Of a stretch of DNA of 57,854 nt, positions 10,485 through 45,384 are shown in pieces. A program made the translations under genes and the position numbers. This stretch comes from a virus. A model generated the notes under the pieces. That model had not been told where the DNA came from. It ran no database searches and saw nothing but the letters and a program-made list of their open reading frames with translations. Within the stretch, counting starts at the first letter, position 1. Each line of letters begins with the position of its first letter. Location: IMG/VR virus record IMGVR_UViG_3300044716_000655, positions 1 through 57,854 of that record; one strand, given 5' to 3'.

Positions 10485-10524
10485 TTTGGCTTTTAGATTT
10501 TTATATATTATCTTTATAGTATAA
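10485..10524 (+). promoter_or_regulatory. Promoter, TTTGG variant of the TATCTTTATAG family
   Basis: TTTGGCTTTTAGATT at 10485-10499, then TTATCTTTATAGTATAA ending at 10524. The upstream element is a classical Bacteroidota -33 TTTG in place of CCTAGA. The same upstream sequence recurs at 18349. It drives the gene at 10546. Confidence 0.75.
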
Positions 10525-30444: not shown

Positions 30445-30511
30445 AGTCAGGTAACTTAATTGGCAAAGCTCCTAACAAGGAAGATTGCGGGTTCGAATCC
30501 CGCCCTGACTA
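30445..30511 (+). ncRNA. tRNA-like element 1, shrunken anticodon arm
   Basis: AGTCAGG (30445-30451) pairs with CCTGACT (30504-30510), discriminator A. The T arm is GCGGGTTCGAATCCCGC and the D arm ACTTAATTGGCAAAGC, all normal. Between them the anticodon arm is reduced to TCCT-AACA-AGGA, four pairs and a four-base loop, so no standard anticodon can be displayed. Length 67 nt. It may be a processing signal, a decoy or a degenerate tRNA. Confidence 0.6.
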
Positions 30512-44366: not shown

Positions 44367-44435
44367 ATGAAAAAAGTATTGACCTGGGCTGAATTAGAAA
44401 GAATAGAGGAGTTTTACCAAGACTTTCAGCCCTAG
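44367..44435 (+). CDS. 22-aa peptide with its own promoter
   Basis: MKKVLTWAELERIEEFYQDF followed by two more residues, helical and acidic. The promoter at 44310 and the stop inside the CCTAGA of the promoter at 44431 leave no other coding option in the unit, so a real micro-gene is likely. Alternatively the unit may make an untranslated RNA. Confidence 0.45.
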   Translation: MKKVLTWAELERIEEFYQDFQP

Positions 44436-44700: not shown

Positions 44701-44740
44701 CCTAGGTAAATAGGGAGATTAATATATCTTTATAGTATAA
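44701..44740 (+). promoter_or_regulatory. Promoter, CCTAGGTAAATAGG subclass, in front of an RNA
   Basis: CCTAGGTAAATAGGGAGA then TATATCTTTATAGTATAA, followed by the hairpin RNA candidate at 44751. Confidence 0.8.
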
Positions 44741-44750
44741 GAAAAAAAAA

Positions 44751-44833
44751 TAAAGTGTATAGGTAATCATGTTACGTGAGCATGAAACAGGATTACAGTG
44801 AAGTAATAAGTTGAAATACGCCTATACACTTTA
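44751..44833 (+). ncRNA. 83-nt structured RNA candidate with own promoter
   Basis: A perfect 13-bp helix TAAAGTGTATAGG (44751-44763) with CCTATACACTTTA (44821-44833) encloses 57 bases. Inside, TAATC (44764-44768) can pair with GATTA, surrounding CATG/CATG. The TATAA of a family promoter lies 11 bases upstream, and no good ORF covers the sequence. It resembles a stable small RNA. Not recognised as tRNA, because D and T arm signatures are missing. Confidence 0.62.
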
Positions 44834-44854
44834 TACCATAATAAAATAAATTAT

Positions 44855-45028
44855 ATGAAAGACAACACAGACATCAAGATTTTAGTTATGTGCGTAGCAG
44901 CATTTGTGATATCAACATTAGGGATAGTAGTATCGCCTACAATAATGTCACAAATATTTTTCGCCGTTATTGATTTATTCATTGCTATTTTGATTATGTT
45001 TTTATTAGGTGAGATTAGAAAACCATAA
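44855..45028 (+). CDS. Small membrane protein, two helices
   Basis: A 57-aa protein with helices at about residues 8-26 and 32-51 (IKILVMCVAAFVISTLGIVV and IFFAVIDLFIAILIMFLL). It follows the RNA candidate by 21 bases and may share its promoter. Function unknown. Confidence 0.5.
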   Translation: MKDNTDIKILVMCVAAFVISTLGIVVSPTIMSQIFFAVIDLFIAILIMFLLGEIRKP

Positions 45029-45361: not shown

Positions 45362-45384
45362 GGGGGCAAATGCCCCCACTTTTT
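45362..45384 (+). terminator. Intrinsic terminator
   Basis: GGGGGC/GCCCCC stem with loop AAAT and a TTTTT run; next promoter three bases later. Confidence 0.85.

Follow-up and report, generated by a model that had tools for sequence, protein, structure and literature searches.

T4 RNAs C and D and lambda OOP are phage-encoded small RNAs, and in the packaging RNA (pRNA) of phage phi29 a terminal helix closes a three-way junction with two hairpins. Structured RNA is also found at the 5'-ends of bacterial mRNAs, in the form of stem-loop stabilisers of the ompA, papA and aprE type, which are named here from the reference list of PMC3997798. The locus described below lies in a 57,854-base IMG/VR record, the whole of which was analysed and is called the window. 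Among sequenced phages, Flavobacterium phage immuto provides the best match to two of the proteins encoded in the window, with identities of 45% and 44%. The locus contains an 85-nt element (44750-44834) that, like T4 RNAs C and D and lambda OOP, would form a short structured RNA within a phage coding run; unlike these RNAs, it has no terminator, no transcript boundary of its own and no known target, and the next gene is contiguous with it. The terminal helix, the three-way junction and the two hairpins recall the phi29 pRNA, but the element is smaller, belongs to an unrelated phage group, lies ahead of an ORF and has no match in Rfam. With the bacterial stabilisers it shares a stable stem-loop in the leader and a ribosome site outside of the structure. 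It differs from them in the three-way junction and in the phage origin of the gene, and its fold is a predicted one.

In the region from 34 to 46 kb of the window very small genes are arrayed, and nearly every gene has its own promoter of one family, with the consensus CCTAG ... TATTATCTTTATAGTATAA. About 33 near-identical copies (CCTAG ... TATCTTTATAGTATAA) span positions 10509-46250 and are dense at 34 to 46 kb. In three members, at 10509, 18373 and 19264, CCTAG is replaced by TTTGG, which is closer to the TTTG that the Bacteroidetes consensus has at -33. The initial annotation had placed a family promoter at 44701-44740, and this was borne out: CCTAG is found at 44701-44705 and TATCTTTATAGTATAA at 44725-44740, on the plus strand like the other parts of the locus, and with a position weight matrix (PWM) built from 33 sites the promoter at 44725 scored 41.3, while no non-member in the window scored above 1.5. 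The weakest of the 33 family promoters scored 25.6, so that the family was cleanly separated from the next best site. A mini-gene of 22 codons (MKKVLTWAELERIEEFYQDFQP) with its own promoter is located at 44367-44435 and is also present in the ~92%-identical relative; its TAG stop codon is part of the next promoter's CCTAG box.

The 5'-arm of the closing helix begins about 10 nt past the promoter. The two arms, ATAAAGTGTATAGG and CCTATACACTTTAT (44750-44763 with 44821-44834), form a perfect inverted repeat of 14 bp, or 15 bp when one G-U pair is counted (44750-44764 with 44820-44834), and are separated by 57 nt. The helix of 13 bp described previously was thus found to be slightly longer. A search of the whole 57.8-kb window for inverted repeats with arms of at least 13 nt and a distance of at most 120 reported 18 repeats, and this one was the only one with 100% complementarity. 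The predicted architecture is a three-way junction composed of the 15-bp closing helix, with pair probabilities of 0.90-1.00, and two hairpins. The first hairpin (44767-44785, UCAUGUU-ACGUG-AGCAUGA) was present in both the MFE and the centroid structure; the second (44786-44812, AAC..AUUAC-AGUGAA-GUAAU..GUU) was present in the MFE structure, and its inner 5 bp also in the centroid. Concerning the two inner pairings that had been proposed, CATG/CATG is part of the first hairpin, whereas TAATC/GATTA is missing from the MFE structure, in which GATTAC favours GTAAT at 44803-44807 and the competing second hairpin is formed. The calculated energy was -27 kcal/mol, compared to -11.3 +/- 2.8 in shuffled sequences, none of 200 shuffles was as good, and the z values were -5.68 and -5.88. 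On the whole, the observation exceeds chance expectation. In a scan with 100-nt windows the site ranked about 12th in the whole stretch by GC-corrected energy, and thus the fold alone is not unique and the perfect helix and its position weigh more than the energy.

The notion that no plausible ORF starts inside the element needs to be qualified, because two overlapping 10-codon ORFs (44769-44801, MLREHETGLQ, and 44782-44814, MKQDYSEVIS) do start there; however, neither of them resembles a gene. Peptide matches were confined to copies of the same virus and were not found in relatives, and both ORFs probably exist by chance. It is very improbable that the element is a tiny gene cassette, in which the ORF at 44769 or that at 44782 is translated into a leader peptide or micro-protein. 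The first ATG does lie 44 nt past the promoter, inside the normal spacing of 12-56 nt, and the 22-codon mini-gene is present only two cassettes upstream. Yet the start codons of both ORFs are buried within the hairpin, peptide homologues are lacking in the relatives, and ORFs of 10 codons are expected by chance.

The next gene (44855-45028) encodes a protein of 57 aa, which is predicted to be a membrane protein from its hydrophobic sequence and for which no PHROG family was found. Its start codon is preceded by an AU-rich leader segment (44835-44854), and the last 13-14 nt of the leader together with the first coding bases are identical to the leader of a relative over exactly 20 nt. The initial annotation had assigned the promoter to a dedicated small RNA that would be separate from this gene, but according to the PWM the same promoter is the only one available for the 57-aa gene. 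The best score at positions 44795-44860 was -48.5; a degenerate second promoter in the 3'-arm, which had been suspected from its likeness to TATATCTTTATATTAATAAAATAAATT, was also ruled out by the PWM. Neither the terminator scan nor the sequence revealed a terminator or a T-run after the 3'-arm, while the scan did detect a terminator-like site elsewhere in the gene run (GGGGGCAAATGCCCCC-ACTTTTTAT at 45362). The element between the promoter at 44725 and the ATG at 44855 is thus contiguous with the gene, and because there is a single promoter and no T-run terminator, it is physically the leader of that gene.

At this site 130 nt separate the promoter from the ORF. Elsewhere in the two closest records the family promoters lie 12-56 nt from the next ORF, apart from one locus shared by both records, where the 22-codon mini-gene and a further promoter intervene and the distance is 152-153 nt. 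When 110 promoter sites from the window and from related loci were considered, the next ORF almost always began less than 60 nt from the promoter. Leaders in Flavobacterium johnsoniae have an average length of 33 nt, and local structure tunes the translation starts of this species (PMC6847099); compared to this mean, roughly 115 nt is an unusual leader length.

Judging from the arrangement of promoter, hairpin and gene, we give an even chance to the proposal that the element is a lineage-specific structured 5'-leader of the 57-aa gene mRNA and acts in cis. RNA polymerase starting near 44740 would generate a single transcript that folds co-transcriptionally and consists of about 10 A-rich nucleotides, the closed three-way junction of 85 nt, 20 AU-rich nucleotides and the ATG of the 57-aa protein. 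Most simply, the long closing helix would slow 5'-end-dependent decay or structurally insulate the mRNA. As the ribosome-loading segment would stay outside of the helix, the amount of the 57-aa protein might be tuned rather than switched off. The predicted mean openness from -20 to +15 around the ATG was 0.65 in the presence of the hairpin, compared to 0.59 in the relative that lacks it, and 20 nt separate the helix from the ATG; therefore, the hairpin is unlikely to simply mask the start. A point against a cis-acting leader is that the helix would probably be preceded by about 9-12 unpaired A-rich nucleotides, whereas the classic terminal stem-loop stabilisers of E. coli have fewer nucleotides there. 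In addition, the hairpin-free relative shows that the 57-aa gene needs no hairpin.

Two IMG/VR records contain relatives of the 57-aa gene. Over 16,204 bases the 140-kb record IMGVR_UViG_3300034061_003277 does not differ from the window, and it therefore represents the same virus; the covariance model found no second copy of the hairpin in it. In IMGVR_UViG_3300032224_000947 most long aligned blocks are about 88-93% identical, the gene order is kept, and the 57-aa homologue is 84-85% identical. In this nearest homologous locus any hairpin is absent, the slot is occupied by an extra cassette of a promoter and a small gene, and the 57-aa gene directly follows its own promoter at a distance of 26 nt (TATAGTATAAAATAAATTATATG). 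Compared to this relative, about 100 bp between GTATAA and AATAAATTATATG are present only in the window, and they may have been either gained in this virus or lost in the relative. Relatives carry widely different genes behind the 68-aa neighbour, so the slot is variable. On three related contigs, a structured intergenic stretch with the shared motif TAATTGCGGTCCATCGA was observed in the 230 nt that follow the 68-aa homologue. The strong folds found behind this homologue in relatives were partly ordinary terminator hairpins, and none resembled the hairpin element.

Absence of the element from the ~92%-identical relative, its perfect inverted termini, its occurrence as a single copy and the surrounding promoter repeats, which favour recombination, would also fit a palindromic DNA insertion or scar in the leader, i.e. 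a foldback or a small mobile or recombination product devoid of an RNA function. We regard this origin as unlikely, since neither the 140-kb virus nor its relatives contain a second copy, a target-site duplication was not seen, similarity to any other sequence is lacking, and structured inner hairpins would be unexpected for a simple scar.

Searches for homologues extended these comparisons. A covariance model built from the single sequence, the search recommended by the initial annotation, yielded nothing convincing in either 50 whole related records or 71 sources; in one hit with an E value of 0.005 per genome, nine closing-helix pairs were broken. When IMG/VR was scanned at the DNA level for the helix, only the same virus was retrieved; a scan for the inner core gave three unrelated hits that lacked the helix. 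In Rfam, searched with both strands, nothing reached the gathering scores, and the two hits below gathering were at chance level (E up to 10), so covariance models did not place the element in any Rfam family, ribozymes and riboswitches included. The site was not predicted to contain a tRNA or tmRNA, and the element had no blastn match in annotated phages. Because the sole other copy found belongs to the same virus (identical over 16 kb) and the element is missing from the nearest diverged relative, covariation, on which the case for a functional fold usually rests, cannot be read for the hairpin, and a single independent copy does not reveal selection on the pairing.

The view of the element as a dedicated phage small RNA was therefore supported in part: the observation itself was correct, and the protein-coding run does contain a structured RNA behind a family promoter, but an own promoter and an own transcript boundary found no support. 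Both the lack of a hairpin at the nearest homologous locus and the contiguity with the 57-aa gene, the two objections foreseen in the initial annotation, bear on this view. A small RNA acting in trans, with a transcript that is cut or ends after the 3'-arm and the 57-aa gene merely lying downstream, seems rather doubtful. The compact closed fold, whose helix would protect both ends, speaks for it, and so does the position in a slot in which relatives carry whole promoter-gene cassettes, as if the element were itself a cassette. However, the terminator is absent, the gene lacks a separate promoter and no record searched contained a homologue. A search for complementarity, a check suggested by the initial annotation, gave no support either: the longest complement in the rest of the window comprised 11 nt, within the range of 10-14 nt given by shuffled RNAs. 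Release of a small RNA from the leader by processing is possible. We consider it unlikely that the element is a new small structured RNA of one phage lineage, a non-coding cassette that would be processed from the leader and act in trans on host or phage. If a small RNA were nevertheless formed, it would be one in a phage related to Flavobacterium phage immuto; a limited literature search retrieved no published example from an immuto-related phage.

The hairpin leader represents a modest, testable finding. If the cis-acting leader is real, the phage would have added a structured leader to one gene within an array of single-gene cassettes. The hairpin-free relative would then offer a natural control for the effect of such a leader in Bacteroidota, the mRNAs of which, to our knowledge, are without Shine-Dalgarno sequences.

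Two further observations were made. When bacterial genomes were scanned for the arms, four hits were obtained in two Saprospiraceae MAGs and one in Richelia. The Saprospiraceae MAGs, CAKZSH01 and JALZVK01, contain many long intergenic palindromes with GTGTAT/AGGTGT units around TTG(A/T)CGAA...TTCG(A/T)CAA cores, which are candidates for terminators or REP-like elements. They share the arms AGTGTATAGG...CCTATACACT with the phage element, but differ from it in these units and TTGaCGAA cores, in their many copies per genome and in their chromosomal location. They were rejected as homologues after a comparison by hand, in which identity inside the arms was little above chance. Lastly, at positions 30445-30511 of the window Rfam, but not ARAGORN, indicated a tRNA (43 bits), which is possibly a degenerate or unusual tRNA.
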